This document shows positions 2,166-50,924 of a DNA stretch of 54,105 bases, in pieces. The stretch lies in NCBI GenBank assembly GCA_947630005.1, contig CANRGB010000005.1, forward strand, positions 1 to 54,105. The letters run 5' to 3'. Positions within the stretch are counted from its first letter, which is position 1. The number at the start of each line of letters is the position of its first letter. Below the pieces are notes generated by a model that worked only from the letters and a program-made list of their open reading frames with translations, did no database searches and had not been told where the DNA came from. Origin of the DNA: an uncultured Lachnospiraceae bacterium (GTDB taxonomy: Bacteria; Bacillota; Clostridia; Lachnospirales; Lachnospiraceae). Position numbers and translations under genes: made by a program.

Positions 2166-3023
2166 TTATTTGGCCTGACTGTCCAGGAAGTTATCCCGGG
2201 ACTTTTTATTCGTCAGGGAAGAACAGTGCTCCTGATAATACTGTTCGACGTCCGCCTCCCTCAATGTACAGGGGACAACCGGCGACAGGAGACTCACGCC
2301 TTTCTTCCCCTGCATCTGCACATTTTCGTAGGATTTCCCGCCCATCGATTTCCCGTCTTCCTGCGTCCGGAACAATTTCAGATAGGACTCCCTCGTTTTT
2401 ACCTCGTCGATCAGACCCGCACGTGTCAGTCCCACAAAGATCGCGCATGACCGTGCCTGACAGTTCAGAGATTTCGTCGCCAGATCCGTAAAAGCCGTAT
2501 ATCCTCCTGCCAGCAGCTTTTCCGTGACTTCCGCGTTCTCCGGCTCCAGAAGAGCGTTCAGATACAGGAAATCATAAAACTGAGAAATATGATAAGGCGG
2601 AACATAGAATTCCATCCCGTCAAAGAGATATCCGCAGGAAATCATTCCCTTTAATTCTTCCTTCACTTTTTTCTTACACTCTTTCCCCGGAAGAAACAGA
2701 TATTCCGGAAACGGTCCTGTGGTTTCATCTTCGGACTTACCGATCTTGGATGACTGAAACGCGCTTTCCACCGACGTCAGTCCGCTTTTCGTCCTCTTCT
2801 GCAGACTCATCGCGCTCAGCTCGGTTCCCAGCAGATAGAGCGAAGAAGAAGACACTTCAAGAATTTTCTCTTCCGGATACGCCGCAAGAAAATTCCTGTG
2901 CAGACCGATCTGACATTTTCTCTTCTGCGACAGAGCAAATCCTCCGAACCAGTCAAATTCCACATGGATCTCCTCGAAAAACGGATACTCTGTTTTACTT
3001 ACAAATACGCTCCTCTTTGTCAT
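2166..3023 (-). CDS. DarT1-associated NADAR antitoxin-type protein, orphan
   Basis: This 285-residue protein matches, from memory, the family annotated as DarT1-associated NADAR antitoxin (DUF6977-like). The landmarks fall in order: FALSQKRK at 29-36, ILEVSSSSLYLLG about 54-66, VESAFQSSK at 85-93, FYDFLYLNAL at 149-158, and AFTDLATKSLNCQARSCA at 177-194. NADAR enzymes remove ADP-ribose; in DarT1 systems they reverse guanosine ADP-ribosylation of DNA by the DarT1 toxin. No DarT-like frame is visible on either strand within the window, so the partner is lost, remote, or the protein has another job. The tail after about 220 is not conserved in my memory of the family. The start ATG has GGGAGG upstream, but that ribosome site lies inside an inverted repeat (3033-3079). 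Confidence 0.7.
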   Translation of the reverse strand: MTKRSVFVSKTEYPFFEEIHVEFDWFGGFALSQKRKCQIGLHRNFLAAYPEEKILEVSSSSLYLLGTELSAMSLQKRTKSGLTSVESAFQSSKIGKSEDETTGPFPEYLFLPGKECKKKVKEELKGMISCGYLFDGMEFYVPPYHISQFYDFLYLNALLEPENAEVTEKLLAGGYTAFTDLATKSLNCQARSCAIFVGLTRAGLIDEVKTRESYLKLFRTQEDGKSMGGKSYENVQMQGKKGVSLLSPVVPCTLREADVEQYYQEHCSSLTNKKSRDNFLDSQAK

Positions 3024-3032
3024 TTTCCATTC

Positions 3033-3079
3033 CTCCCGTGTGATTTATTTTTCAGGAAGATAACTTTATCACACGGGAG
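3033..3079 (-). promoter_or_regulatory. 12-bp inverted repeat enclosing the ribosome site of the NADAR-type gene
   Basis: ATCACACGGGAG (3068-3079, plus strand) pairs perfectly with CTCCCGTGTGAT (3033-3044). On the minus-strand mRNA the second arm contains the GGGAG of the ribosome site that serves the ATG at 3023. The predicted fold would hide it. On the plus strand the stem is followed by a T-rich run, so a terminator for antisense transcripts is the alternative reading. Confidence 0.5.
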
Positions 3080-3107
3080 AAATTTTATTTTTTTCGTTTA
3101 TCCTGCC

Positions 3108-5558
3108 CTATGCAGATGCCGGCGCAAAATCCGTTTCTGCCCTCGCGGACAGTTTCGCGCTGTCCGGTATCCTTGACGGGTATCCGAAATATTCCGGCTC
3201 CTCTATCTCCGGGTTATTCATCTCCGGATTTTCCATTCCTGAATCTTCCGCTCCCGGGTTCTCTACTTTCGGGTTCTCCATCTCCGGGCTTTCTGCTCCC
3301 GGGTTCTCCATCTCCGGATCTTTCGTCCCCTGTTCTTCTATTTTCAGCTCTTCCTGTTTTACAGTATCCAGGAAAGCATTCATATTCCTCACAATTTTTT
3401 CTACGCTGGTCCATGTAACCACGAGTGCCAGCAGAGCCAGTCCTATTACGACCCTCGTCGACATACGTTTCAGCGTTCTGTCTTCCGGATCTTCGTCGTA
3501 CGCTGTAATTCCGAACAGTTCCTCTGCCTTTCGCTGTCTGATCTCCTTTCTCTCTCTTCTTCTTCTTTCTTCCTCTTCAAATTCCTCCTCAAGTTCGTCT
3601 TCAAACTCGTCTTCCGTCTCTTCTTCAGACAACCGGACACTCTCCAAGAACTGTTCAAGCACGCCCTTTTTTCTCTCGTTTCTCTCCCCGTTCACAGGTT
3701 CCTCCCCTGTTCCTTTTCCTGCCTGTCCGGCTGTCTGCTCTTCTTCCTTTTCATCCTCGTCCGCCAGTTCCCAGTACGTTTCTTCCGACTGATCTTCTTC
3801 AGGCAGCCGAATAGTCTCCAAAAACTTTTCAAGCACACCCTTTTTTCCCTCGTTTCTCTCCCCGTTCATTAATTCTTCCCTTTTTCCTTTCCCGGCCTGT
3901 TCAGCCGTCTGTTCTTTTTCCTTTTCATCCTTGTCCGCCGGTTTACCACACGTTTCTTCCGGCTGCGCTTCCTCGCTTTCCAGTTCCCAGTATGTTTCTT
4001 CCGTCCGCGCTTCCCCGCGCTCCGGCCCCCGGCATGCTTCTCCGCCCGCCTCCTGGAGGCGCGCCTTTTCTGCCTGCGCGTTTTCCCATGAGCACCAGAG
4101 CAGCAGCACAAGCGCGGCCGTATCCAGGTAAACCGACTTCGCACCCGCAAAGGGCAGGTTGATCGGAAGCGGCAAAAGTCCCAGACTGTAAGGAATCCCC
4201 GCCAGAACCCGGAGTGCAAGCGACCACCAGGCGGCATGATAGATCAGATAATTTTCATTGTACTCCATACTCTTCCCCAAAAGCTTCCTCGTCGCAGCCA
4301 GGAACACAAACAAAGCGAGCAGGATCTCCAGAACCGCCTTCCATCCCCAGTAATACAGCGCGCTTTGCAGATAATCGTTGTTATTAAAAAGAAATTCGTA
4401 AATCCGCATGTTCGTCTGCAGAGCATACGCCGGCCCTGAGATGGCCGCGTTTCTCATCAGAAAGAACACATTTTCCATATAACGGCGCCAGCTTCCATCC
4501 GCAATATACTGCAGAAGACCCCGGCCTGAATTATGGAGCAGGAGCAGCAGCCCGAACCACAGCGCCGCATAAAATACCGTGAAATGCACGGTGTTTTTTC
4601 TCTTTCCGTGAGATTCCCCTGTGTACTTCCTTACAGCTGCGGACAGAGTCAGCAGATCGACCGCCGCCAGTTCGAGCATCCAGATACCGCTATGTTCCAT
4701 GTACAGCAGAAACTGCATGACAGTCAGCATTGTCAGCTGCAGACAGGCGGAAATGACGCTTGTATAATGAAAGTTTTTTTCCTTCATTCCTTTAAAGATC
4801 ACCTGTGTCCAGAGAGGAAACGCAAAGATCAGGATCACATCATAAAGGTACGTCTTGTCCACAGCTATAGCTCCGGCAAAAATGTAGTCCCTGTCCACGT
4901 AAAGAGAAAACGACGTGGTGCATACTTCCAGCACCAGCATCACAAGAAACAGCAGAGAAAGCGCAAATACCACGAGCAGCGATTTATAAAGTGTGCCGGA
5001 ACCTGCTTCGAACGTCTCATAATCCTCTTCCATATCCCATATATCATAGTCCTCTCTGTTTTCCGCCACGTCCCCTGCTGCGCCCATCGCTTTGCTTCCC
5101 GCCGTGACTTCCGCTGCGCCCATCGTTTTGCTTCCTGCCGTGACTCCTGCTGCGCTCATCGCTTTGCTTCCTGCCGTGACTCCTGCTGCGCTCATCGCTT
5201 TGCTTCCCGCCGCGTCCATCGTTTTGCTTCCCACCGCGTCTTCTGCCGCGCCCATCGCTTTGCTTCCCGCCTCGCCCATTTCATCGTCGAAAGACAGCAG
5301 CTCGTCAAGCAGCTCATCGTCCATATCCCAAGGCCAGTTGTAGTCAAGAATTTTCTTAATGGAAATAACACTGCAAATAAAGAGGATCAGCAGAATCAGC
5401 ACGGCCGCGGCGCGCAGCAGATACCCCAGGTTACCCGCGTGATCCTCAAAATTCACCCGGTAAACAACAGTGTGAAGCACCAAAAATATAAGCCATGTTC
5501 CGAGGGCCGCAGCCAGAGGCAGGTTACATTCCCTTACTTTTTCAATCAGTTTTTTCAA
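3108..5558 (-). CDS. Large polytopic membrane protein with three sets of internal repeats
   Basis: This protein of 816 residues starts at TTG with GGGGAGAAG just upstream. I do not recognise the family. Visible parts are two N-terminal membrane segments (about 14-33 and 47-67); a soluble insert of 12-residue repeats of the type GSKAMSAAGVTA (about 97-165); a bundle of hydrophobic segments (about 190-490); a highly charged cytoplasmic region (about 495-680) containing a 58-residue unit duplicated in tandem (174-bp period); a further membrane segment VVIGLALLALVVTW; and a tail of PEMENPGAE-like pentapeptide repeats. It lies 111 bp after the VWA gene and on the same strand, suggesting one transcription unit. 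Its role there, for example as a membrane anchor, is inference. Confidence 0.75.
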   Translation of the reverse strand: MKKLIEKVRECNLPLAAALGTWLIFLVLHTVVYRVNFEDHAGNLGYLLRAAAVLILLILFICSVISIKKILDYNWPWDMDDELLDELLSFDDEMGEAGSKAMGAAEDAVGSKTMDAAGSKAMSAAGVTAGSKAMSAAGVTAGSKTMGAAEVTAGSKAMGAAGDVAENREDYDIWDMEEDYETFEAGSGTLYKSLLVVFALSLLFLVMLVLEVCTTSFSLYVDRDYIFAGAIAVDKTYLYDVILIFAFPLWTQVIFKGMKEKNFHYTSVISACLQLTMLTVMQFLLYMEHSGIWMLELAAVDLLTLSAAVRKYTGESHGKRKNTVHFTVFYAALWFGLLLLLHNSGRGLLQYIADGSWRRYMENVFFLMRNAAISGPAYALQTNMRIYEFLFNNNDYLQSALYYWGWKAVLEILLALFVFLAATRKLLGKSMEYNENYLIYHAAWWSLALRVLAGIPYSLGLLPLPINLPFAGAKSVYLDTAALVLLLWCSWENAQAEKARLQEAGGEACRGPERGEARTEETYWELESEEAQPEETCGKPADKDEKEKEQTAEQAGKGKREELMNGERNEGKKGVLEKFLETIRLPEEDQSEETYWELADEDEKEEEQTAGQAGKGTGEEPVNGERNERKKGVLEQFLESVRLSEEETEDEFEDELEEEFEEEERRRRERKEIRQRKAEELFGITAYDEDPEDRTLKRMSTRVVIGLALLALVVTWTSVEKIVRNMNAFLDTVKQEELKIEEQGTKDPEMENPGAESPEMENPKVENPGAEDSGMENPEMNNPEIEEPEYFGYPSRIPDSAKLSARAETDFAPASA
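3620..3967 (-). repeat. Two tandem 174-bp units inside the membrane-protein gene
   Basis: The segment encoding KGVLEQFLESVRL through YWELADEDEKEE is present twice, 174 bp apart (compare CGTTTCTCTCC at 3677 and 3851). The copies have diverged by scattered substitutions but remain in frame. Confidence 0.7.
5079..5279 (-). repeat. 36-bp in-frame tandem repeats (12-residue GSKAM units)
   Basis: About five to six copies of a unit like CATCGCTTTGCTTCCCGCCG follow one another with 36-bp spacing and few differences, encoding GSKAM-GAAEVTA. The high similarity between copies indicates recent expansion. Confidence 0.75.
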
Positions 5559-5570
5559 TCTTCTCCCCTC

Positions 5571-5634
5571 TTTCTGTCTCTGTTTTTACAATCTTAATCC
5601 GATTTCTGTCTCTGTTTTTACGATCTTAATCCGA
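5571..5634. repeat. Two tandem 32-bp units between the VWA and membrane-protein genes
   Basis: The unit begins TTTCTGTCTCTGTTTTTAC and ends TTAATCCGA. It is present at 5571-5602 and 5603-5634 with a single A/G difference. Confidence 0.8.
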
Positions 5635-5669
5635 ATTTTCATGTCCGCCGTGCGGGCATCCGTTTCCGC

Positions 5670-6908
5670 TTATTCAAGATCATCTCCTTTGATCCGTATC
5701 ACTTTTCCCCAGGGCGGCTGCACTTCGCTGTCAATGATAATCCACAGCACGGGGATTCCCAGCGTCTCGCTTTCCTGCGGAAACTCCGCATACCCGTCTG
5801 TCATCACAACGACCGCCTCCGGGAGATCTCTTGTCATATGTTTTTTCATGTACCAGAAGATTGATCTGAAACTCGTTCCCCCGCCGCCGGCAGGCCTGCA
5901 TTTTTCCAGATCCTCCTCTGATTCAAACTCTACCGGTTCCGTCACATCCCAGTCAAAGAACGATACTTTTCCTTTAAAATGGCGGAACTGAAGCAGGGCC
6001 TGCCTGACTTCCCCGAACAGCACCGTCAGCTCTCTTTTTGTTATGGAGCCGGAGGCATCCACGCAGAACCATATGTTTCCGACGGAATCTTCCTCCTCAA
6101 AATGAAACATCGGTATGATAAGATCCGTATAGCTGTATCTCCGGTCGTTCGGGATAAAGCTGTAATCCGCCTTGTCCAGAACCTGATGCAGAAAATCATG
6201 CAGTTCTTTTTTCCAGTCAATCTTCGATTTTCTGTAGCCTTCAAAGATCTCTCTGGCTTTCAGACAGACCCGGTCTCCCGCCATGTGCGATTTCGCCCCA
6301 TGAATGTTTTCCTGCCATTCATAGCTTTCCGCGCTCTCAGGTTCGAGACGGGTCCACGGATCATGCCTGTCAATCAGTACATACTTCCCGCCCTGACCCG
6401 AATCGGAAGCAGAATCCCCGGAGCCGAAGCCTTCTTCGAACACGAAACCGTTTCCCGGCGTCGTCCCGGAGCCGCGCAGCAGCATCTCATATACTTCCTC
6501 TGCCGTGTACAGCCTGCCTTCTTTCCCGTTGGGCGCCAGATGCGGGATCATTTCCCCTCCCACCTCAAACTCACAGTATCCCATGGTCCAGAGCAGCATC
6601 GAATTTACCACGATATCGCATGCGATATTATAGAGATATCGGTAATGATTCCGCGCTCTCAGACAATGCGACAGCGCGCAGTGCATCACTTCATGCATCA
6701 TGACCACGGCTGTCTGCTCGTCATCCAGCCGGCTCACAAACTCCGGATCGAACACGAGATGTCTCATATCCGTATAAGCCGTCTTGCAGTCCGCCAGCCC
6801 AAGCTGCAGATGCAGCAGAAGGGTTCCCCAGAACGGATAGCGGAACAGCAGTTTCGTCCGGACCGCATGCAGCCGCCCCATGACTCTGATCTTTTCCTTC
6901 TGATCCAT
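5670..6908 (-). CDS. DUF2201-type putative metallopeptidase with C-terminal VWA domain
   Basis: This protein has 412 residues. The N-terminal half carries a zinc-peptidase-like signature, HEVMH at 72-76, followed by NIACDIVVN at 94-102 where a third acidic ligand (D98) is expected. The C-terminal half is a von Willebrand A domain with a complete MIDAS: DASGS at 284-288, T345 in GGGGTSF, and D371 in MTDG. VWA proteins of this class work with MoxR AAA+ ATPases as metal-dependent protein-binding adaptors. The MoxR gene ends only 13 bp upstream, and the start has a very strong GGGGGGAGGAGA ribosome site. Whether the peptidase is active is unknown. The substrate is unknown. Confidence 0.85.
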   Translation of the reverse strand: MDQKEKIRVMGRLHAVRTKLLFRYPFWGTLLLHLQLGLADCKTAYTDMRHLVFDPEFVSRLDDEQTAVVMMHEVMHCALSHCLRARNHYRYLYNIACDIVVNSMLLWTMGYCEFEVGGEMIPHLAPNGKEGRLYTAEEVYEMLLRGSGTTPGNGFVFEEGFGSGDSASDSGQGGKYVLIDRHDPWTRLEPESAESYEWQENIHGAKSHMAGDRVCLKAREIFEGYRKSKIDWKKELHDFLHQVLDKADYSFIPNDRRYSYTDLIIPMFHFEEEDSVGNIWFCVDASGSITKRELTVLFGEVRQALLQFRHFKGKVSFFDWDVTEPVEFESEEDLEKCRPAGGGGTSFRSIFWYMKKHMTRDLPEAVVVMTDGYAEFPQESETLGIPVLWIIIDSEVQPPWGKVIRIKGDDLE

Positions 6909-6921
6909 TCTCCTCCCCCCT

Positions 6922-8016
6922 TTACATAAATTTCCGATTGCGCTTCATCCACTCCCGGTACGCCGGCACGGTCATCAGCCGCGTCTTCATGCTCTCCTCG
7001 GTCATGATATCCCGGTAGAATTTCGCGGCGAAATCAACCGGAAGCCCCCTGAGATACTGACAGATATTTCCCAGATTCCGGTCGGTGATCCTGTCCGGAT
7101 CCTCCAGAATCCTCGATGTGAGCGAAGAAATCAGCGCGCACATAACGTCCGGCTGTCTGGGACAGTCACCGCCGCGTCCGTCAAATATCTCATCGATATC
7201 CGGCAGCGTCTGGTATACTCTGCACCAGCCTTCAAATTCCAGCGCCGCGCCAAGGCCGACGCAGCCGGCGATCATAGGATGAATATCCGACGGCAGCTTC
7301 GCGCCGGATGCTTTCAGGACATCGCTGACAAACTTCCAGCTTCGCGGCGTCGGAAAGGCCTTATCGTCCGCATCTGTCTCCTGATAAAGCTTACTGCTGT
7401 CAAAAGAAAGGTAACCCAGGACAAGCGGATGCAGACGCATCTTTACCGCCCACTCTCTGAAACTTTCAAAATCCACTTTGATCTCAAAGTGCATCAGGCG
7501 GTTCGCCAGAGCTTTCGGCATCTGATAGGCGACGCTCCGGTCGGTCACCCGGTTTCCGGCCGCGATGACGATCGTATTGTCAGGAAGGCTGTGCTCCCCG
7601 ACCGTCCGGTCCAGCGTGATCTGGTAGGCCGCCGCCTGTACGGCCGGAGGAGCCGCCGAGAGCTCATCCAGAAAAAGCAGATTCACAACGTCCTCGTCCG
7701 CGGAAAGGTCAAACAGCTTCGGACGGAGCCATTTTGTGAACTCCCTCTCCGCGTCCGGCACAGGGACGCCGCGCAGCTCGATCGGCGAAAACAGCAGCAG
7801 ACGGATGTCCGTGACATGTGTCTTCTTCCCTGTAGCTTTTTCAATATTATCCGCGATCTGCCGGACCGCCGCGGATTTTCCTATACCGGGCGGTCCCCAG
7901 AGGAACACAGCCGGCACATCCGTCATACGCATATTCTGACGGATCATCGCCACATACAGCGCGCTGAGTCCATTTGTTAATGCCGCAACAGATAGAGCTG
8001 AAATATTTGTACCCAT
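6922..8016 (-). CDS. MoxR-family AAA+ ATPase
   Basis: This protein has 364 residues if it starts at the ATG at 8016. That ATG has AGGAGG in front and begins MGTNISALSV. A longer frame reaches 8103 but has no better ribosome site and runs into tandem repeats. Motifs: Walker A GPPGIGKS at 41-48, Walker B LLFLDE at 113-118, sensor-1 AAGN at 152-155, and ANR at 171-173. MoxR proteins are chaperone-like ATPases that pair with VWA proteins to remodel or activate targets. The VWA partner follows after 13 bp, so the two are almost certainly co-translated. The helicase gene lies upstream on the same strand. Confidence 0.88.
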   Translation of the reverse strand: MGTNISALSVAALTNGLSALYVAMIRQNMRMTDVPAVFLWGPPGIGKSAAVRQIADNIEKATGKKTHVTDIRLLLFSPIELRGVPVPDAEREFTKWLRPKLFDLSADEDVVNLLFLDELSAAPPAVQAAAYQITLDRTVGEHSLPDNTIVIAAGNRVTDRSVAYQMPKALANRLMHFEIKVDFESFREWAVKMRLHPLVLGYLSFDSSKLYQETDADDKAFPTPRSWKFVSDVLKASGAKLPSDIHPMIAGCVGLGAALEFEGWCRVYQTLPDIDEIFDGRGGDCPRQPDVMCALISSLTSRILEDPDRITDRNLGNICQYLRGLPVDFAAKFYRDIMTEESMKTRLMTVPAYREWMKRNRKFM

Positions 8017-8074
8017 AACATTCCTCCTGACTATTCTCCCGTATATTTTTGTGTGTTCCTCGCTGGTCTCTTTC

Positions 8075-8210
8075 GTTTTTTTTCCGTGTCCCTGGTCCCT
8101 CACCGGTCTCTTCCGATTTTCCGTGTCCCTGGTCCCTCACCGGTCTCTTCCGATTCTTTTCCGTGTCCCTGGTCCCTCACCGGTCTCTTCCGGTTCTCTT
8201 CCGTGTCTTC
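8075..8210. repeat. Intercistronic minisatellite between helicase and MoxR genes
   Basis: Three near-identical copies of CCGTGTCCCTGGTCCCTCAC followed by CGGTCTCTTCCG, with a degenerate copy on each side, have a period of about 37-40 bp. The period is not constant and not a multiple of three. The gap between the two genes (8017-8234) is largely made of this repeat. Confidence 0.8.
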
Positions 8211-8234
8211 CCCGTTGGCCTCTTCCGGCCTTTC

Positions 8235-11200
8235 TCAGCATCTCAGTTCCTCATCAATTGCATCCAGTTCATTCATGACAGCCTCTGTCTGCGCGTCATA
8301 GGCATTGCCTTTTTTCAGTTCTTCCCTCACTTCAAGAAGCTGCCGGCGCAGCGCCCTCAGTTTCTTCTCATGCCGGCGCAGCGTCTCCGGCAGGTGAGTC
8401 AGCACATAGTCGATCCTGCGGCTGACGCCCGCTGTCCTGGCATCTCCCATCTGAACCGTATAGTTCCTGCCGTCCTTCTGCCTGGTCAGAATAATATGCG
8501 GCCGCTGCGGATCCATCCGCGCCGGAAGCAGCACTTTAAATCCCTGATATTCGGCGAAAAACCGCTCGGAAGGTCTGGAATCATTATCCTTAAGCGCCTC
8601 CAGAAGCTCCTCACCGAACGCCGTCCTCTCTTCCTCCGGCACCCTTTCCCTGTGTACGAGACAGAAATCCAGATCTTTCTTCGTGAGCCGGATCGTCTCT
8701 TCCCGTTTCTGAATCTCCTCGCAGAGCGAGCTTTCCATGCTCCGCAGCTCCAGCAGCTGTCTTCTGCGCTGTTTCTGCGCGATCCTCAGTCGTTCCAGAT
8801 GATTGGAAACCTCCACCCGCTTCCGGATCAGAGGATTGCCAATGGCCAGCGCCTTCGCCTCGGCATACGACAGGACCGTGTCCGCGATATCGGACTCCGA
8901 CCGGTGAACCTCATCCATCGTGCCTTCCAGGAACGAGCTGATGAACTTCTGCTTGTTCTCAAGAATCTGCCAGGAATAGCTGTCAAAGGAGCCCTCTGTT
9001 ATGTATCGGTAGATAAAAACCTCCGGATTCTGATTCCCCTGGCGGATCAGCCTCCCCTCTCTCTGTACGACATCCGAAGGACGCCACGGGATATCGAGGT
9101 GATGAACGGCCAGCAGATTCCTCTGCACGTTGACCCCGGTTCCGAGCTTCTGCGTGCTCCCCAGCATGATCCGGATCTTCCCGCTATTCATATCTTCCAG
9201 AAGCTTTCTCCGCTTCTGCTCGGTCGTCCCCTCGTGGATAAAAACAACATCTTCCGGGGCGGCGCCTTTTTTGACCAGCACATTTTTCAGCTCATCATAA
9301 ATATTGAACGTCTTTTTGGGCGTCGAACTGTCGCAGAATACGATCTGTGAAGTCCCCGGATATTTGACATAGTTTTCAAATACTTTGGCAGCGCACGCGT
9401 CGATCCTCGATTCCTCCTCGCTTTCCTCCCAGAATTCCGGATCAACCAGCCTCATATCCAGTGCGCATTTTCTCCCGTCGACCGTCACCAACAGAAGATT
9501 GTCCTTTTTCCGGTCCGCCTGACCGAGATGGATTTCTTCCGTTCTCCTTCCGATATCCTCGATAAACATCCGCTGCAGTTCATTCCTCTTTATCAGAACA
9601 TCCGTATATCCCCTGAAAACCGGCAGCCTGTTGTCGTCCGAGACCTGATAAAAATCACAGACACTGGAAAACAGCGCCATCAGCTCCGGAAGGTTGTGGA
9701 ACCTGCTGTATCTGGACCGGACGCGGAAGTTCTGGCCGTCCACATCGATCTCAAAGGCCTCGTCCATCTCCCCGAACACCGTGATCCATTCACTGAAATA
9801 TTCAATGCCGCAGCTTTTGAGATCCTCCGGCTGGAGATACAGCTGCAGCACATACAGATCCGTCAGGCTGTTGGTGAGCGGCGTTCCTGTCGCAAAAATG
9901 ATCCTGCCCCCGGAGTTCTGCACAAAACGCACCTTCTCCAGCATCGCGTCGCATTTTCTGCTCCCCGTTGTGTGGAACCCCACGATGTTTTCCGCGGTGC
10001 CTTTGACCGTGACATTTTTGTAATTCTGACATTCGTCCAGGATCAGAAGATCGATCCCCAGTTTGTCAAAACAGGACTCATCCGTATCTTTAAGCTTCTC
10101 CCTGAGCTTTTCATACTGCTTATTCAGTCTCCCGTGTTTCGCTTCCAGCGCATTCTTTTCCACTCTATTGTGCGCTTTTCGGATCTCCTCCGCGCACTGA
10201 AAGATCTCTTTCTGCTTCAGATCCAGATAATACTGTCTGCTCATCTTCAGCATGTCAAAAGAAGAATACGCCATGTAGACCGCCACATATCCGCCTCTGC
10301 GGATCCGGTCAAGGATCTCCTTTCTGCCCGCCACCGTAAAGCTCTTCGGATAGACTGCCAGGATCTCGTCCTGCGGATACAGCCTGCGGTGATCCTGCAC
10401 AAACGCGTCAAAAATGTTGTTTGGCACGACCACCATCCCTTTGGAGATCAGTCCCATCCTGTGCAGCTCATGGACGCTGCAGATCATCTCATACGTCTTG
10501 CCGCTGCCGACCTTATGCGCCAGAAGCGTATTCCCGGACATGATGCATCTGGCCACCGCGTCCTTCTGGTACGGATAAAAAGAGATGTCTTCGGCGGCAT
10601 CCTCCAGCCGCAGCCAGCTTCCGTCGTACGTCTGAACACGGTATCCGAACCTTCTGCTGTACAGCTCCGCCAGCCTCACACGCCTGCCGGGAACCTTTCT
10701 CAGCCATTCCTGAAAGGCTTTCAGGATCGCTCTCTGTTTTTCCTGCGCTTCCAGTGTATCGTGATGGTTCACCACGTACTCCGTTTTTCCGGTACTACAG
10801 TTCCTCACAGGATCTGTGACCTTGATCTCCTGCGCGTTCATGGTATGCTCCAGAATCTCGACCGCCGACATCCTTCTGGTTCCGTAAGCGTATCTGTTCA
10901 GAATCCAGTCCGGATCTCCGCATCGGATTATCCACTTCCCGAGATACCCGCTCACGACCACCTCCGGATTTTCCCCCGTTCCAAGCAGTTCTCTTATAAA
11001 ATTGACATAATAGGAGGGCGGCACCCACATCGCGCCCAGGGAAATCCGAATATCCTCCGCGTCCGGCGATTCAGGCAGAACCGCTTTCAGCATCCGGATA
11101 TTCTCCTTGAAAACACCCGGATATTTCTTCTCCATTTCCTTTGCTTCTTTCAGGAGTCCGTAAATATTGCCGCGCGCATACATGTTTTTCGTCAGCCATT

Positions 11201-11777
11201 TTGTGCGCGCCGCACAGTCCGGATCATAACCATGCGGATCCGGCCAGACCGCGTGCGCCTCCCACAGTTCCCGCATCAGTGTGTCCGCGTCTTTTCCGGC
11301 AAGCTTTGCCATATATTCGACACGCACCTCCCCGTACCGGTTCATGGACATGACCAGAGCATCCTCCGGCGTCAGAGCAAAACCTCTCCCGCCATCAGAA
11401 ACAGATCCCCCCGCGTCGTCATCAAAAGAAGACAGCGCTTCTTCATCATCCAGTTCGTTGTCAAATGTCTCAATATCAAATGATTCTGTGTCAAACGTCT
11501 CAATATCGAACGTTTCATTGTCAAATGTCTCAATCTCGGACATTCCGGAATCGGAAGGTTTGGTATCAAATGTCTCACTTCCAGACATACTGGAATCGGA
11601 CAGTTTGGTGTCATATGTCACAGTCCCGCTCATCCCGGAACCTCCGGCGCCGGACTGTTCTATGTCATATGTCTCAATCTCTGATGATTCTTTGTCAAAT
11701 GTCTCAATCTCAAATGCGGCTCCCAGTCCGCTCTGTGTCTGTCCGAAAGACAGGCAGTTCTCATGCGCAGCAAACAT
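8235..11777 (-). CDS. SNF2/DEAD-like helicase, phage/conjugative-element type, with repeat-rich acidic N-terminus
   Basis: This protein has about 1180 residues, with its ATG at 11777 preceded by AAAGGAGGGG (a GTG six bases upstream is less likely). Residues 1-130 are low-complexity repeats of the type IETFDNETFD. Residues about 134-265 (LTPEDALVMSMNRYGEVRVEYM...) match the region that precedes the helicase core in the giant methylase-helicase proteins of mobile elements. The core has HKVGSGKT (421-428), DECQ (581-584, DEAH position), GTPLTNS, and a C-terminal helicase domain with GTGVNVQRN and VQREGRLIRQGN. A coiled-coil tail follows. No methylase motif (NPPF/Y) is visible, so this is a helicase-only derivative. 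It heads the MoxR-VWA operon, an unusual partnership. Confidence 0.82.
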   Translation of the reverse strand: MFAAHENCLSFGQTQSGLGAAFEIETFDKESSEIETYDIEQSGAGGSGMSGTVTYDTKLSDSSMSGSETFDTKPSDSGMSEIETFDNETFDIETFDTESFDIETFDNELDDEEALSSFDDDAGGSVSDGGRGFALTPEDALVMSMNRYGEVRVEYMAKLAGKDADTLMRELWEAHAVWPDPHGYDPDCAARTKWLTKNMYARGNIYGLLKEAKEMEKKYPGVFKENIRMLKAVLPESPDAEDIRISLGAMWVPPSYYVNFIRELLGTGENPEVVVSGYLGKWIIRCGDPDWILNRYAYGTRRMSAVEILEHTMNAQEIKVTDPVRNCSTGKTEYVVNHHDTLEAQEKQRAILKAFQEWLRKVPGRRVRLAELYSRRFGYRVQTYDGSWLRLEDAAEDISFYPYQKDAVARCIMSGNTLLAHKVGSGKTYEMICSVHELHRMGLISKGMVVVPNNIFDAFVQDHRRLYPQDEILAVYPKSFTVAGRKEILDRIRRGGYVAVYMAYSSFDMLKMSRQYYLDLKQKEIFQCAEEIRKAHNRVEKNALEAKHGRLNKQYEKLREKLKDTDESCFDKLGIDLLILDECQNYKNVTVKGTAENIVGFHTTGSRKCDAMLEKVRFVQNSGGRIIFATGTPLTNSLTDLYVLQLYLQPEDLKSCGIEYFSEWITVFGEMDEAFEIDVDGQNFRVRSRYSRFHNLPELMALFSSVCDFYQVSDDNRLPVFRGYTDVLIKRNELQRMFIEDIGRRTEEIHLGQADRKKDNLLLVTVDGRKCALDMRLVDPEFWEESEEESRIDACAAKVFENYVKYPGTSQIVFCDSSTPKKTFNIYDELKNVLVKKGAAPEDVVFIHEGTTEQKRRKLLEDMNSGKIRIMLGSTQKLGTGVNVQRNLLAVHHLDIPWRPSDVVQREGRLIRQGNQNPEVFIYRYITEGSFDSYSWQILENKQKFISSFLEGTMDEVHRSESDIADTVLSYAEAKALAIGNPLIRKRVEVSNHLERLRIAQKQRRRQLLELRSMESSLCEEIQKREETIRLTKKDLDFCLVHRERVPEEERTAFGEELLEALKDNDSRPSERFFAEYQGFKVLLPARMDPQRPHIILTRQKDGRNYTVQMGDARTAGVSRRIDYVLTHLPETLRRHEKKLRALRRQLLEVREELKKGNAYDAQTEAVMNELDAIDEELRC
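11455..11710 (-). repeat. Degenerate short in-frame repeats in the helicase N-terminus
   Basis: Repeated units of the type TCAAATGTCTCAATATC, 15-18 bp each, encode IETFD/SETFD motifs over about 85 codons. Confidence 0.6.
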
Positions 11778-11860
11778 AAACACCCCTCCTTTATACCCCT
11801 ATTATCTCATAATTTCTCTGATTTTTCCTCCACCAGAAGATTACCTCAGCAGTTCAGAGC

Positions 11861-38557: not shown

Positions 38558-40945
38558 TTACTGTTCACTCCCGCGCGCTCCGAATAATTTCTTCACTTTC
38601 CGGTAGAGCCGCCACACCTTCGTCTGCTCCATCCAGCGGATTCTTCCGTCCTGCGCGAGCGCCGTCTCCCGCAGGATCCCCTCAAGAGGCTCCCGGTAAA
38701 ATGCGATCTCAACCGGTCGGTCTTCCTCCCACAGACGCGGGATGACAAATTCCGCTTCCGCGTCGTCAAACAGATAATCCCCGTTCGGCGCCCGGTGTCC
38801 GGCCGTTTCACAGGGAAGCGCTCTTCCCGCCTGCTCCATTTTTTCGATCCGCACAACGCTCCGCCTGCCGCCGAGAACAGCCTTCACCGCCCTGGTTCCC
38901 GCCGGCAGAGCGATCGTCAGACTTCTCTTTTCGCCGCAGGCCGGCCGGTACCGACGGCTGTCCTCTTCACAGAATCCGTTCCCCCGGTCAAACCAGACCT
39001 CCACCGGCTGCACTTTTTCCCGTGCGGACGCCTCCCGCACCAAGGGCTGCACCGGTATGACTCCTTCCGAGATCGCGTCGTACAGCTTCCATGCCGGCTG
39101 GTACTCTCCCAGCATATACTGCTGGAACCGGGTCTCCATCGAATCAAACCACTGCCGCATCCGCGGCGTGATCCCAAACTTTGCGAAGAGGTCATATCCG
39201 CCAAGCAGTTCTTCCCGCCTGGTATTTCCATAAATATAATAATTGAGACAGCGGTATTTCAGAAATCCCGCCGGCACCGGGAAGTCAAATGTCCACTCGT
39301 AATCGATCAGCTCATACCCTCTGTCCGTTCGGATCACGTTGGAAAAAATCATGTCAATATCCGAGATCTTCCGGGACTTCTGCCCGTCCTCTCCCTGCGG
39401 ACACTTCCCGAACACCTGCACAAACCCGTCCGTCTCCCTGAACTCCTCCCCGCCGTCCTCAAACAGGGAAAAATAATCCCGGATCTTCCCGATCACCTGC
39501 TCTGTTCTGCCCGCGAAAAGCTGTTCGTCCAGCTCCTCCTCCAGCGTCGGGCCTTCCAGCCATTCCAGATAAGCGTCCCCATTCTCCATCCGGCAGCGGT
39601 TCACAAAAAGCCCCGTCCCTTCCAGATCCCCGGCAAGCTCCTGGTATTTCCTGCCGATGGAGGCGATATGCTCCGCCGCCCGCGGATCCGCCGCGGTCTT
39701 TCTCACCACACGGCTTTTGTCCGCGTATTCCAGGATGTCCGTCCTGATGCGGAAGCGCGGATCCCGCTCATTCGAATATTTCAGACCGATCACCGTCAGA
39801 GAAGCAGCGTCTCTCTCAGGTGCCGCGGTCCCATTCCGGAACACAGCCTCATCCTCCGGTGCCGCGATCCCATTCCGGAACAAAGCCTCGTTCTCCGGCG
39901 CCGCGATCTCATTCCGGAACACAGCCTCATCCTCGGACGCCGTGTTTCCACACCGGAATCCGGCTTCGTTCTCCGGCGCCGCGGTCCTCTCTGCCGTCCC
40001 CACTTCGTCTCCTTTCACAGCGACCACGAAAAAGGAATTCGCATACAGCGGATACAGTCCGCTTCCGACAAGGGAATCATACACTTTCTCCTCGCTGAAT
40101 ACCTGCATCCTCTGCCGGTCAAAATTCTGAGCATTCCGGTTCAGCTCCCCTTTGCGGGGCAGACAGCGGTCCGAATAAATGCGTTCCGGCAGCTTATAGT
40201 CCGGATACGGATAATAAAATTCCCATTTTGCAAATTTAGACTTTGCAAAAAGATTCTCCAGCTCCGGCTTCGCGAACGTACGCACATAGTCGGTCGTCGG
40301 ATAACCCTCCAGTCCCTCAAAGTAAACGCCCGTGTGATCCTCCGCGGCTCCGGCCCAGTATTTAAGTCCCAGACGGTTCTCAATCGCGACGACCAAACGG
40401 CCTCCCGGAGCGAGAAGACGCCGGACCGCAAGCAGATAGTCGGCAAACGGATCCGGAGACTGGATCGAAAACTGCGCGTATTCAAACACGCCGATCAGCG
40501 TGATCAGATCAAATTTCTCCTCCAGGCTTTCTGCCACATCCTGAAAATTTCCGACCAGAATGCGGATATTCTCGCGGTCCCGGTTCCTGTACGCATTGAT
40601 GAGGCTGCGCCGTTTCGAGAGATCGATACAGGTCACGCTTTTCGCCTTCCCGGCCAGGATCCCCGTGACCGCGCCTGGCCCCGCGCCGATCTCCAGCACT
40701 CGTTCCTGTCCGGTCATCGGCAGCCACTCTATGATATTTCCGCGCACATGGGAAAAATGATACAGAATCGGCCAGTTCTTTTTCTCGGCGATCACCTGAC
40801 TGTAATCGCCTCCTCCGTACAGCTTTGCCAGCTCCAGCATCTCATCCTCGATCCCGCCGTCGCTGTACGTGTCTTCCCCCGGATAAAACCGGTAATCCAG
40901 CGTCACCTTTCCAATCTTTTCCTGCATCTGACTCCTATCTTCCAT
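38558..40945 (-). CDS. Methyltransferase-domain protein with C-terminal kinase-like region (surface-polysaccharide cluster)
   Basis: This protein has 795 residues. Residues about 60-220 form a class I SAM methyltransferase with VLEIGAGPGAVTG, IDLSKRRSL and LITLIGVFEYAQ. An insert of 13-residue repeats of the type EDEAVFRNGIAAP (about 318-375) follows. Residues about 385-640 contain VVRKTA, LEWLEGPTLEEEL, DIDMIFSNVI and LIDYEWTFDFPVP, the style of lipopolysaccharide-kinase/aminoglycoside-kinase-like folds (H/D..N...D). Proteins of this layout accompany Wzt/Wzm ABC exporters, where a methyl or phosphoryl cap can end chain growth. That role is inference. It is last in the cluster, before asnS. 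Confidence 0.75.
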   Translation of the reverse strand: MEDRSQMQEKIGKVTLDYRFYPGEDTYSDGGIEDEMLELAKLYGGGDYSQVIAEKKNWPILYHFSHVRGNIIEWLPMTGQERVLEIGAGPGAVTGILAGKAKSVTCIDLSKRRSLINAYRNRDRENIRILVGNFQDVAESLEEKFDLITLIGVFEYAQFSIQSPDPFADYLLAVRRLLAPGGRLVVAIENRLGLKYWAGAAEDHTGVYFEGLEGYPTTDYVRTFAKPELENLFAKSKFAKWEFYYPYPDYKLPERIYSDRCLPRKGELNRNAQNFDRQRMQVFSEEKVYDSLVGSGLYPLYANSFFVVAVKGDEVGTAERTAAPENEAGFRCGNTASEDEAVFRNEIAAPENEALFRNGIAAPEDEAVFRNGTAAPERDAASLTVIGLKYSNERDPRFRIRTDILEYADKSRVVRKTAADPRAAEHIASIGRKYQELAGDLEGTGLFVNRCRMENGDAYLEWLEGPTLEEELDEQLFAGRTEQVIGKIRDYFSLFEDGGEEFRETDGFVQVFGKCPQGEDGQKSRKISDIDMIFSNVIRTDRGYELIDYEWTFDFPVPAGFLKYRCLNYYIYGNTRREELLGGYDLFAKFGITPRMRQWFDSMETRFQQYMLGEYQPAWKLYDAISEGVIPVQPLVREASAREKVQPVEVWFDRGNGFCEEDSRRYRPACGEKRSLTIALPAGTRAVKAVLGGRRSVVRIEKMEQAGRALPCETAGHRAPNGDYLFDDAEAEFVIPRLWEEDRPVEIAFYREPLEGILRETALAQDGRIRWMEQTKVWRLYRKVKKLFGARGSEQ
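39817..39990 (-). repeat. 39-bp in-frame tandem repeats in the methyltransferase gene
   Basis: About four copies with 39-bp spacing (compare CATTCCGGAACACAGCC at 39832 and CATTCCGGAACAAAGCC at 39871), encoding 13-residue units. Confidence 0.75.
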
Positions 40946-46839: not shown

Positions 46840-47436
46840 TCAGCCCGCCTCCGTCGGTTCCTGTTCCGTCTGTACGGACAAAAACGCGGTGTTTCCGGAC
46901 GAGCCGCTGCTCCCCTGTTTCCCGTATATTCCGACCTCGGACACAAAAGCCGCGATCAGCGCCACAAGCAGCAGTACAAGTATTATGGTCAGGATCCGCA
47001 ATTTGTATACGTTCTCCTTCGGCATATTCTCCCATGTGTACGTTTCCGCCGCGTCTTCCCGGGGCGTTCTGCGGGGCGCCGTGCGCTCTCTCCTGCCCGC
47101 GTCCGCGTTCTCCGGGCTCTTCCGGGACGTCCTGGCCGCCTGACCGGTGCGCTCCCTTCGGGTCGTCTGTGCCGTCTCTCCGGTGCGTTCTCTTCGGGTC
47201 ATCTGTGCTGTCTCTCCGGTACGCTCCCTTCGAGTCATCTGTGCCGTCTCTCCGGTACGCTCTCTTCGGGTCGTCCGCGCCGTCTCTCCGGTACGTTCCC
47301 TTCGGGCCGCCTGTGCCGTCTCTCCGGCCCGGGACTGCCGTATTTTCTGATTTTTAGTGCTGTCAGCCTGCAGCAGCGGATTTTCAGAGCTTCTTCTGCG
47401 TCCTTCCGGCTCTGCCGGCATTTTTCTTTCGTCCAT
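46840..47436 (-). CDS. Repeat-rich single-pass membrane protein
   Basis: This 198-residue protein has a strong ribosome site (AGGAGG). The first 135 residues are strongly basic, with about six copies of a 12-residue unit TRRERTGETAQM encoded by 36-bp repeats. A membrane helix follows (about 146-168, LRILTIILVLLLVALIAAFV) and then a short external tail. I do not recognise it. It is first in the polysaccharide cluster, behind its own promoter (47460-47488). A cytoplasmic basic tail could bind nucleic acid, acidic lipids or a partner enzyme; this is inference. Confidence 0.65.
   Translation of the reverse strand: MDERKMPAEPEGRRRSSENPLLQADSTKNQKIRQSRAGETAQAARRERTGETARTTRRERTGETAQMTRRERTGETAQMTRRERTGETAQTTRRERTGQAARTSRKSPENADAGRRERTAPRRTPREDAAETYTWENMPKENVYKLRILTIILVLLLVALIAAFVSEVGIYGKQGSSGSSGNTAFLSVQTEQEPTEAG
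47140..47335 (-). repeat. 36-bp in-frame tandem repeats (12-residue RRERTGETAQ units)
   Basis: About six copies of a unit like GTGCCGTCTCTCCGGTACGC with 36-bp spacing and few differences. Confidence 0.8.
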
Positions 47437-49271: not shown

Positions 49272-50924
49272 TTAATAGAACTGCTGACCGTCAATGATCT
49301 CTCCCTCGCCTGTGCCTGAGTTGAAATACAGCACATCGCCTGCCGGACACTCGCCGTTGAGAGCTGCGAGCGCCGCCTCGTAACATTCGCTCGGTACGCC
49401 GTTCTCAAGCGCATCCTCAAGTGCTCCGCTCTCTGCCGGTGAAAACTGTCCGCTCTGATAGATCACATCGCTGATCGTATCCGGGAAGTTCTCATCCTTC
49501 AGGCGGTTCATAACAACCGACCCTACGGCTGCCATGCCGTCATAGCTCTGGTCTCCGGCTTCGCAGTAGATCAGGGCCGCCAGGAGCGCCGCGTCGTCCG
49601 CGCTTACTTCCGCTGCCTCTCCATCTCCCGTGGAGACCGCATTGCCGTTTGCGTCGTAGTACGTATCCGTGTCCGCGTCGTACCAGCCTCCGTCTCCTGC
49701 CTCATCGTCTGCGGTATCATCATAATAGGTCTCCTCCGCAGTGGAAGCCTGCACGTCTTCCCCTGTGGAAATCACATTGCCGTCTGCGTCGTAATACGTA
49801 TCCGTATCCGCGTCGTACCAGCCTCCGTCTCCCGTCTCTTCATCCGCGGCGGGTTCTGCGGATGCGGTATCGTCATAGGTCTCCTCCACAGCGGAAGCCT
49901 GCGCGTTTCCGCCCTTGGAGATCACATTGCCGTTTGCGTCGTAGTACGTATCCGTGTCCGCGTCGTACCAGCCGTCATTATCCAGATTGACGTCGCCTCC
50001 ATTATTTTCCGGGGCTTCTGTCTGAGGCGGCACATACTCGGTCTGAGGCGGATCCGTCTGAGGCGGATCTGTTTCCGGCGGTATGTACTCCGTCTGAGGC
50101 GGCACATACTCAGTCTGCGGCGGCGTGTATTCCGTCTGAGGCGGCACATACTCAGTCTGCGGCGGCGTATACTCCGTCTGAGCCGGATCGGTCTCCGGAT
50201 CCGTATATCCCGGATCTTCCGACGGATCGGTCTCCGAATCTGTATAATCTTCGTCTTCGTAGTATTCTTCCTCAGAGTACTCTTCCTCGTAATACTCTTC
50301 CTCAGAGTACTCCTCCGTCTCGCCCTCCGGAGCGCTGTACTCCTCGTCAAGTCCGTAAGCTGCGTCCAGAAGGAAGGCTCTCTGTACGTCGTCCTCCGAC
50401 ACGTAGGCCTTGTCCTCACCGTACTCGACCGTCAGCCAGTGCCCGTTGTCCTCAAGCACCACCAGATCGTCGCCGGTGTTCAGCTCGCCCCATACTTCGG
50501 CGTCCCCGCTCGGCTCCCCGTACACGCAGACTCCGTCCCAGATCGCCGTGATGCCGGCACATCCGTACTCCTCCGCGATACTCTCGGCGTCCGCTCCGTA
50601 AAGCAGATAGTCGTTGTCTACAAATCCCTCGATCTCGCCGGAGGAAATCTCTGTCCACTTCTCACCCTTATCAATAACCCATACGGCGCAGCCCGGATAA
50701 ATAAAGCCTACAACCGCACTCTCTTCGTCGGCCTTCTCACGAACGTTCACGCCCGTCAGCACTCCGTCGTAAGTCATCGCAAGCTTTTCCCATGCAGCTT
50801 CCTTCTCGTCCTCGCGTACTGCGATCCACTTTGGCACTTCCCTCGCCATAGCAGTGGAACCGATCAGCAGGGAGGATAAAACAGCCGCAGAACATAACAC
50901 TGCGCAGTTCATTTTCCTTCTCAT
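49272..50924 (-). CDS. Secreted SleB-type cell wall hydrolase with SH3 domains and repeat linker
   Basis: This protein has 550 residues from the ATG at 50924 (AGGAGG upstream). A signal peptide (1-27, cleavage near AMA) is followed by two SH3b-like modules (about 52-110 and 125-190), an E/Y-rich stretch, a linker of PPQTEYV heptads (about 245-310), and three copies of a module containing GWYDADTDTYYDANGN (about 320-455). A Hydrolase_2/SleB domain covers about 460-550 (ALIYCEAGDQSYDGMAAVGS, VVMNRL, SGQFSPA). SleB-type enzymes are lytic transglycosylases that use a Glu; E in YCEAGDQ fits. A role in wall turnover or spore cortex is likely. Confidence 0.88.
   Translation of the reverse strand: MRRKMNCAVLCSAAVLSSLLIGSTAMAREVPKWIAVREDEKEAAWEKLAMTYDGVLTGVNVREKADEESAVVGFIYPGCAVWVIDKGEKWTEISSGEIEGFVDNDYLLYGADAESIAEEYGCAGITAIWDGVCVYGEPSGDAEVWGELNTGDDLVVLEDNGHWLTVEYGEDKAYVSEDDVQRAFLLDAAYGLDEEYSAPEGETEEYSEEEYYEEEYSEEEYYEDEDYTDSETDPSEDPGYTDPETDPAQTEYTPPQTEYVPPQTEYTPPQTEYVPPQTEYIPPETDPPQTDPPQTEYVPPQTEAPENNGGDVNLDNDGWYDADTDTYYDANGNVISKGGNAQASAVEETYDDTASAEPAADEETGDGGWYDADTDTYYDADGNVISTGEDVQASTAEETYYDDTADDEAGDGGWYDADTDTYYDANGNAVSTGDGEAAEVSADDAALLAALIYCEAGDQSYDGMAAVGSVVMNRLKDENFPDTISDVIYQSGQFSPAESGALEDALENGVPSECYEAALAALNGECPAGDVLYFNSGTGEGEIIDGQQFY
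49625..50200 (-). repeat. Two repeat arrays inside the SleB-type hydrolase gene
   Basis: Three long modules (about 49628-49985) each encode WYDADTDTYYDA, and a run of 21-bp units (about 50030-50190) encodes PPQTEY heptads. Confidence 0.75.

Follow-up and report, generated by a model that had tools for sequence, protein, structure and literature searches.

Does a short run of same-strand genes near the start of contig CANRGB010000005.1 encode a single machine, or are its members merely neighbors? This contig is contig 5 of an assembly from an uncultured Lachnospiraceae bacterium (GCA_947630005.1; 3.2 Mb, 222 contigs, 82.8% complete); the whole stretch analyzed, 54,105 nucleotides, is referred to here as the window. 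The original prediction, made without database searches, proposed that an SNF2 helicase, a MoxR ATPase, a DUF2201-type VWA protein, and a large membrane protein form a membrane-tethered defense or stress system flanked by NADAR and Rpn-like genes. We find that three of these genes, those for the helicase, MoxR, and the peptidase/VWA protein, are a fixed three-gene operon in distant, scattered Clostridia of the gut and not a chance grouping. What the operon does is a more tentative matter, which we approach through its conservation, its phylogeny, and its neighbors.

The window carries the genes as they had been described, those from the helicase to NADAR all on the minus strand. The first core gene (8235-11783) encodes an SNF2-type helicase/translocase of 1182 amino acids (aa) that matches the Pfam families SNF2-rel_dom (expectation value [E] 5.2e-8) and Helicase_C (E 1.8e-12), with the helicase motifs HKVGSGKT at residues 423-430, DECQ at 583-586, and QREGRLIRQG at 907-916. 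The second encodes a MoxR-type AAA+ ATPase. Its longest open reading frame (ORF) covers 6922-8103, and the ATG at 8016, which has AGGAGG ahead of it, is a more likely start than the GTG at 8103, giving a gene at 6922-8016. The third (5670-6908) joins a DUF2201_N zinc metallopeptidase domain (E 1.2e-26) to a DUF2201 VWA domain (E 3.8e-18). Both sequence signatures reported for this protein are confirmed: the zinc-site motif HEVMH (residues 72-76; 6681-6695, minus strand) and a full metal ion-dependent adhesion site (MIDAS), including DASGS at residues 284-288 (6045-6059, minus strand). Measured between ORF ends, the gaps from the helicase through NADAR are 131, 13, 111, and 84 bases. With the ATG at 8016 as the start, the helicase-MoxR gap grows to 218 bases and takes in the greater part of a tandem repeat (8058-8207; 3.8 copies of a 40-bp unit), a local feature of this junction. 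The repeat may account for the width of the gap, as the two genes touch or overlap in most relatives.

To place these genes among their relatives, we used a MoxR alignment to scan a genome set with one member per species and retained the best 80 of 265 relatives, all titled as Bacillota groups except one (L072, “uncultured bacterium”). Together with the window and two further loci (L044 and L045), these make 83 distinct loci. MoxR and VWA genes are both present in all 83, and in 81 a helicase lies upstream and the VWA gene downstream, all on the MoxR strand. The two loci without an upstream helicase offer 77 bases before MoxR (L113) and 287 upstream bases with none (L045). The order is simple in 75 of the 81; the helicase is split into two ORFs in three, an extra chimeric gene is present in two, and the VWA gene is split into two ORFs in one. 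Spacing between the longest ORFs is tight: no more than 20 bases separate helicase and MoxR in 73/81 loci, the gap being exactly -4 in 44, and MoxR and VWA lie within 20 bases of each other in 76/83.

Since these loci were selected through MoxR and represent the best 80 of 265, we ran a reverse test on 391 independently drawn genomes of Clostridia, calling operon-type helicases above 1200 bits and MoxR at E of at most 1e-100. The helicase occurs in seven genomes, MoxR in nine, and both are adjacent in six, the window's own genome included. Six of the seven operon-type helicases therefore adjoin MoxR and the seventh runs off a contig end, so this helicase is not one that mostly occurs apart from MoxR-VWA, and the predicted co-occurrence of the three genes as a fixed unit holds from both directions. 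The four remaining genomes comprise two with loci that end at contig ends (G472 and G451) and two with MoxR-VWA but no helicase (G341 and G427). The three genes also descend together: across 64 loci, the identity matrices of helicase, MoxR, and VWA agree with a Mantel rho of 0.83-0.86, a value reached in 0/500 permutations.

The helicase had been described as a mobile-element type lacking its methylase. No methylase family was matched in the window helicase (Pfam), as described; its assignment to the mobile-element lineage does not stand. Most other helicase relatives in the family sample lie within longer ORFs, of 2,400-3,000 aa, at 33-39% identity, and the helicase-methylase or mobile-element label on these long ORFs is that of the original prediction rather than the result of a methylase scan. 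In a 61-row helicase tree (local support, midpoint root), 35 operon rows and a stand-alone helicase (L214) are split from 24 of 25 long mobile-type rows by a 100% branch; the 25th long row (L023) has the same sequence as an operon row (L215). By this phylogeny, the operon helicases are a lineage of their own, apart from the long mobile-element helicases, and a helicase-methylase with recent methylase loss is ruled out.

The residues on which activity would depend are strongly kept. Within the peptidase/VWA protein, H72 and H76 are present in 79/79 relatives, E73 in 76/79, and the MIDAS residues D284, S286, and S288 in 79/79. The helicase ATPase motifs are kept across 71 relatives, and MoxR is conserved over 85 rows. 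DUF2201_N and DUF2201 were both found in 66/66 rows, and the peptidase domain weakly resembles the M48 (48/66) and SprT-like (20/66) families at E up to 0.01; the window's own protein gave no SprT-like match at E 0.01. The model of the peptidase/VWA protein shows a VWA fold, with the MDN1 MIDAS domain as its best Foldseek match. The listed Protein Data Bank matches of this model cover the VWA part (at least a fifth of the rows span model residues 259-412), so the peptidase half is not placed by fold. A sequence search of solved structures led from the peptidase half to MJ1213 alone (best E 5.3e-4) and from the helicase to two weak SNF2 matches, and gave no match for MoxR. The helicase model, with a middling predicted local distance difference test score of 72.7 (residues 1-134 fall below 50), has a SWI2/SNF2 fold, with Mot1 and SMARCAD1 among its best matches.

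SNF2 proteins are motors on duplex DNA; MoxR ATPases work with VWA partners to remodel proteins. That a nucleic-acid motor is coupled to MoxR-VWA in this operon can be soundly inferred. We further favor, tentatively and with less than even confidence, a machine of three proteins that would take proteins off nucleic acid or cleave them there, in nucleic-acid stress or phage conflict. The SNF2 protein would track along duplex DNA until it reaches a target, which might be a protein bound to the DNA (foreign, stalled, or cross-linked) or DNA in an abnormal state. Once engaged via the MIDAS of the VWA subunit in a putative physical complex, the MoxR ring would unfold this target, and the zinc peptidase domain within the VWA protein would cut it. 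Expression is probably on demand, with a linked WYL regulator as the presumed sensor of nucleic-acid stress, and variable helper enzymes may reverse ADP-ribosylation (NADAR, macro, and PARG) or join RNA (RtcB). Retention of the catalytic Glu in so many relatives makes such a protein-cutting machine a better fit than a pure chaperone, and we rank it above defense alone because the flanking defense genes are scattered.

Several observations weigh against this protein-cutting machine. The catalytic Glu is missing in 3/79 relatives, among them L044, where it is lost beside an intact helicase. Two MoxR-VWA pairs in the operon MoxR clade (L211, 1395-3850; L212, 8978-11435) have no helicase, and their peptidase motifs read HQLMH and HQLYH, with the catalytic Glu replaced. 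Proteolysis is thus dispensable in some cases, and variants of the module may work without it. Loss of the Glu may be tied to loss of the helicase, but the loci disagree: L211 and L212 lack both, L044 lacks only the Glu, and L045, without a helicase in 287 upstream bases, still has HELMH. The L214 helicase (1,001 bits) stands alone, with no MoxR within its 18-kb stretch. WYL relatives were found in only 22/83 distinct loci by direct search of the available flanks. Lastly, the SprT-like score of a chimeric protein from L120 is 23.2 bits, below the Pfam cutoff of 25.6.

The strongest competitor is a dedicated anti-phage system, in which the SNF2 protein would recognize invading DNA and trigger MoxR-VWA, and the peptidase would activate or destroy a target so that infection stops. 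We consider it somewhat unlikely. The patchy distribution of the operon counts in its favor: operon-type MoxR occurs in 2/47 genomes of the genus (remote MoxR genes, E about 1e-40, in three more), so MoxR-VWA is not a genus core gene, and VWA and the operon-type helicase occur together in 4/120 genomes of a family sample with one genome per genus, the window's own included. Lachnospiraceae and Oscillospiraceae labels are likewise scattered on the MoxR+VWA tree, with 7 changes where shuffled labels average 6.8 (23/64 rows labeled; many weak branches). Horizontal spread fits this scatter; an old duplication followed by losses is a possible alternative. Among the fold matches of the helicase, ZorD, another point in favor, appears at rank 30.

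Linked gene families bear on the same question. Across 50 genomes with the operon (116.3 Mb in total, from rounded sizes), we counted copies within 12 kb of MoxR against a binomial expectation on genome length, a comparison that would be inflated by genes clustering in islands for unrelated reasons and that covers the tested families without an unrelated control family. WYL regulators lie near MoxR in 21/114 copies (expected, 1.17; p 3e-20), NADAR in 4/11 (expected, 0.11; p 3e-6), RtcB in 4/31 (expected, 0.30; p 2e-4), and Macro in 3/65 (expected, 0.62; p 0.025). Published work, PMC9122588 included, describes WYL regulators as acting in DNA-damage and immunity control and as binding single-stranded DNA or RNA. 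In the window, the predicted NADAR gene is clear (2166-3023, minus strand; E 2.5e-52; 177.9 bits against a cutoff of 27). It belongs to the DarT1-antitoxin family PF22397 and is a variable accessory of the operon; NADAR of either type recurs in 8/83 loci (the window, L045, L048, L074, L082, L084, L093, and L100), and so the association that had been noted is not a peculiarity of this contig. DarT (PF14487) was absent from all 16 genomes searched, including the window's own 82.8%-complete one, and a DarT-NADAR toxin-antitoxin pair is thus ruled out even though this NADAR is of the DarT1 family. NADAR strips ADP-ribose from guanine (PMC11543638), and the role of NADAR enzymes without DarT is called unclear in PMC11125620; an orphan NADAR is the pattern that PMC9503650 interprets as a sign of host reply to viral ADP-ribosylation, which would favor anti-phage defense.

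The wider flanks argue the other way. Among the PADLOC matches listed at E up to 1e-10 for the nearest 150 flanking genes, there are nine for WYL, three for mad3, two each for PDC-S23 and AriA, and one for every other family among the 25 of 112 listed. No steady defense island was seen around the operon in these 150 genes: WYL apart, the matches are scattered. No window protein has a close PADLOC family match, the DrmD score being 49.1 bits against a cutoff of 610, which rules out DISARM DrmD. Flanks vary between loci, and in several the neighbors of the operon are housekeeping families.

Returning from defense to the choice between a protein-cutting machine and a chaperone, we consider it unlikely that MoxR-VWA serves purely in assembly, maturing a client that might be the helicase itself, with a structural zinc site. 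MoxR-VWA pairs are known chaperones, a phage pair has been proposed to act in virion assembly (PMC7824862), and the Glu is absent from the three relatives and from L211 and L212. Against this stand the 76/79 operon proteins that retain the Glu and the HExxH string in 66/69 proteins of a mainly phage set.

Relatives outside bacterial chromosomes show how far the operon extends into mobile elements. In a 71-row MoxR tree, 39 operon rows form one group that also encloses three bacterial pairs lacking a helicase. Bacillus phage G comes next, then the 25 remaining viral rows, and the three remote MoxR genes of the genus fall outside. Among 80 viral loci, out of at least 579 confirmed, all three genes are present in one (L131), MoxR and VWA in 64, and MoxR alone in 15. 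Of 50,697 annotated phage records, 808 contain MoxR relatives, 440 VWA relatives, and 110 helicase relatives, each counted separately, and 124/72,556 plasmid records contain MoxR relatives, all below 60% identity. The phage G MoxR is 51.4% identical to that of R. bromii, with a VWA relative ~4.4 kb away and no helicase between the two genes. That VWA relative, gp576 (NC_023719.1, 424347-425525; L216, 14410-15588), aligns with the DUF2201 peptidase/VWA protein at 30.4% identity, covering 97% of the query, and its annotation as an “HNH endonuclease” looks wrong by this similarity. L131 (5293-12087), from a record called viral, carries the operon beside a DUF2828/DUF7788 protein and then two genes that appear recombinase-like by eye; a second locus, L107, has a DUF2828/DUF7788 protein beside the operon (4333-5820). 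A mobile-element or phage module that serves the element, with host genes as mere passing neighbors, is very unlikely: the long helicase relatives in many genomes, termed mobile-element type in the original prediction, the phage G genes, and the recombinase-like neighbors in L131 are in its favor, but 79 of the 80 viral loci lack the full set, phage G has no helicase between its two genes, the operon helicases are a separate lineage, and the flanks vary by locus.

How does the operon relate to systems already described? Phage MoxR/metallopeptidase-vWA pairs (jumbo phage group 2.2; PMC7824862) also have MoxR adjacent or close to a vWA protein that begins with a metallopeptidase domain, and the window's peptidase/VWA protein shares the DUF2201-type architecture by fold, with full-length matches to phage models. 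The phage pairs differ in having no helicase partner in 79/80 viral loci, and their MoxR proteins, phage G apart, branch separately; the window operon contains a helicase and, judged by eye, sits among chromosomal genes. The vWA-MoxR ternary conflict systems (PMC7159879, with iSTAND variants in PMC12839542) likewise combine a MoxR-vWA core with a further component. In the present operon this further component is an SNF2 helicase, which lies upstream wherever sequence is available, the pairs excepted; nine window proteins gave no match to a VMAP, beta-propeller, or iSTAND family (Pfam; other loci scanned in part). ARG-centered counter-ADP-ribosylation systems (PMC9503650) share WYL/Nudix regulators, vWA chaperones, macro, NADAR, and sometimes helicases. 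Their center is an ARG domain, whereas here the center is helicase-MoxR-peptidase/VWA and NADAR or macro is optional; no ARG domain gene was found among the nine window proteins in the Pfam scan, PF03747 not having been searched in the flanks of other loci. These three kinds of system are already in print, and the helicase-containing operon is an added variant of the MoxR-vWA kind. No description of a helicase-MoxR-DUF2201 operon was found in the open-license papers searched, subscription papers not covered.

Two more distant comparisons concern parts of the machine. RavA-ViaA combines a MoxR ATPase with a VWA partner as the operon does, and is not known to have a peptidase domain or a DNA motor. 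The long mobile-element helicases have a homologous helicase region (35-38% identity) but differ in length (2,400-3,000 aa versus about 1,180) and form a separate branch. SPRTN/Wss1 with p97/Cdc48 would be a functional analogy, an AAA+ unfoldase and a zinc peptidase acting on a DNA-bound protein, with weak homology that falls below the cutoff in the one scored protein (the L120 chimera) and with SNF2 as the motor here. The broadest version of our preferred protein-cutting machine is speculative, and we rate it as rather doubtful: that SNF2 translocase, MoxR unfoldase, and zinc-peptidase/VWA constitute a new class of bacterial machine that clears or proteolyses DNA-bound proteins, an independent counterpart of p97-SPRTN and Mot1 that is switched by WYL and used in repair and in conflict with ADP-ribosylating phages. 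If the proposed activity is true, bacteria own a three-part counterpart of eukaryotic DNA-linked proteolysis. MoxR-VWA modules are widespread, with clients known for few. The fixed DNA-motor partner points toward DNA-bound proteins as clients and renders client identity testable. The operon also ties DarT-less NADAR enzymes to a defined gene set.

The remaining genes of the window are less constant. The 816-aa protein (3108-5558, minus strand; seven hydrophobic segments by Kyte-Doolittle) has no Pfam family above the cutoff and no relative in the available flanks of other loci. It is thus a local neighbor outside the conserved unit: a four-gene unit including it is ruled out, and the membrane tethering that had been proposed is no feature of the system. 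Of the two flanking genes named at the outset, the Rpn/YhgA-like one (851-1948) lies on the plus strand and is a weak assignment, at 19.0 bits against a PF04754 cutoff of 21, unlike the firmly assigned NADAR; the flank search found a relative of it in one other locus (L071).

Elsewhere, the matches listed for 288/457 near genes include as recurring families AAA_lid_6 ATPases (seven; set A5), calcineurin-like phosphoesterases (six; A5), and PcfJ (five; A4). A large AAA ATPase with AAA_lid_6 (L119, 18024-19424) recurs in the flanks of 16 loci, some matches being weak or fragments, and a small protein of 132 aa without a Pfam match (L074, 5380-5778) recurs in those of 6/83 distinct loci. L042/L093 also has a microbial PARG and a YspA SLOG protein. 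The helicase-less MoxR-VWA pair of L045 (616-7581) is closely linked to nicotinamide adenine dinucleotide (NAD) metabolism: its neighbors are NADAR, a nicotinamide mononucleotide transporter, an NrtR-type Nudix regulator, and a cytidylyltransferase-like protein.

Individual loci depart from the common layout. In L106, an opposite-strand gene that by eye resembles ammonia-dependent NAD synthase lies between MoxR and VWA (7961-8695). In L046, which holds the nearest relative of the window MoxR, only the C-terminal helicase part (profile 905-1180) is open beside MoxR (1-1340), and the preceding ORF has no helicase match; this helicase may be broken or misassembled. The chimeric gene between MoxR and VWA in L120 (11079-12017) and L108 (11079-12014) joins a peptidase N-terminal part to a MoxR C-terminal part; its two parts are 46% and 64% identical to their L120 neighbors, and the frame is kept open in both loci. 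It likely arose from tandem duplication across the MoxR-VWA junction, and since such a duplication yields exactly this joint, any hint of contact between the two proteins is weakened. Tandem repeats are common in the window (32 rows, e.g., 3193-3965, 5074-5279, 8058-8207, 11459-11640, 39814-39987, 47144-47327, and 49627-50316), and in most intragenic ones the length of the unit is a multiple of three (15, 36, 39, 42, 45, 60, 150, and 174), unlike that of the 40-bp junction repeat.

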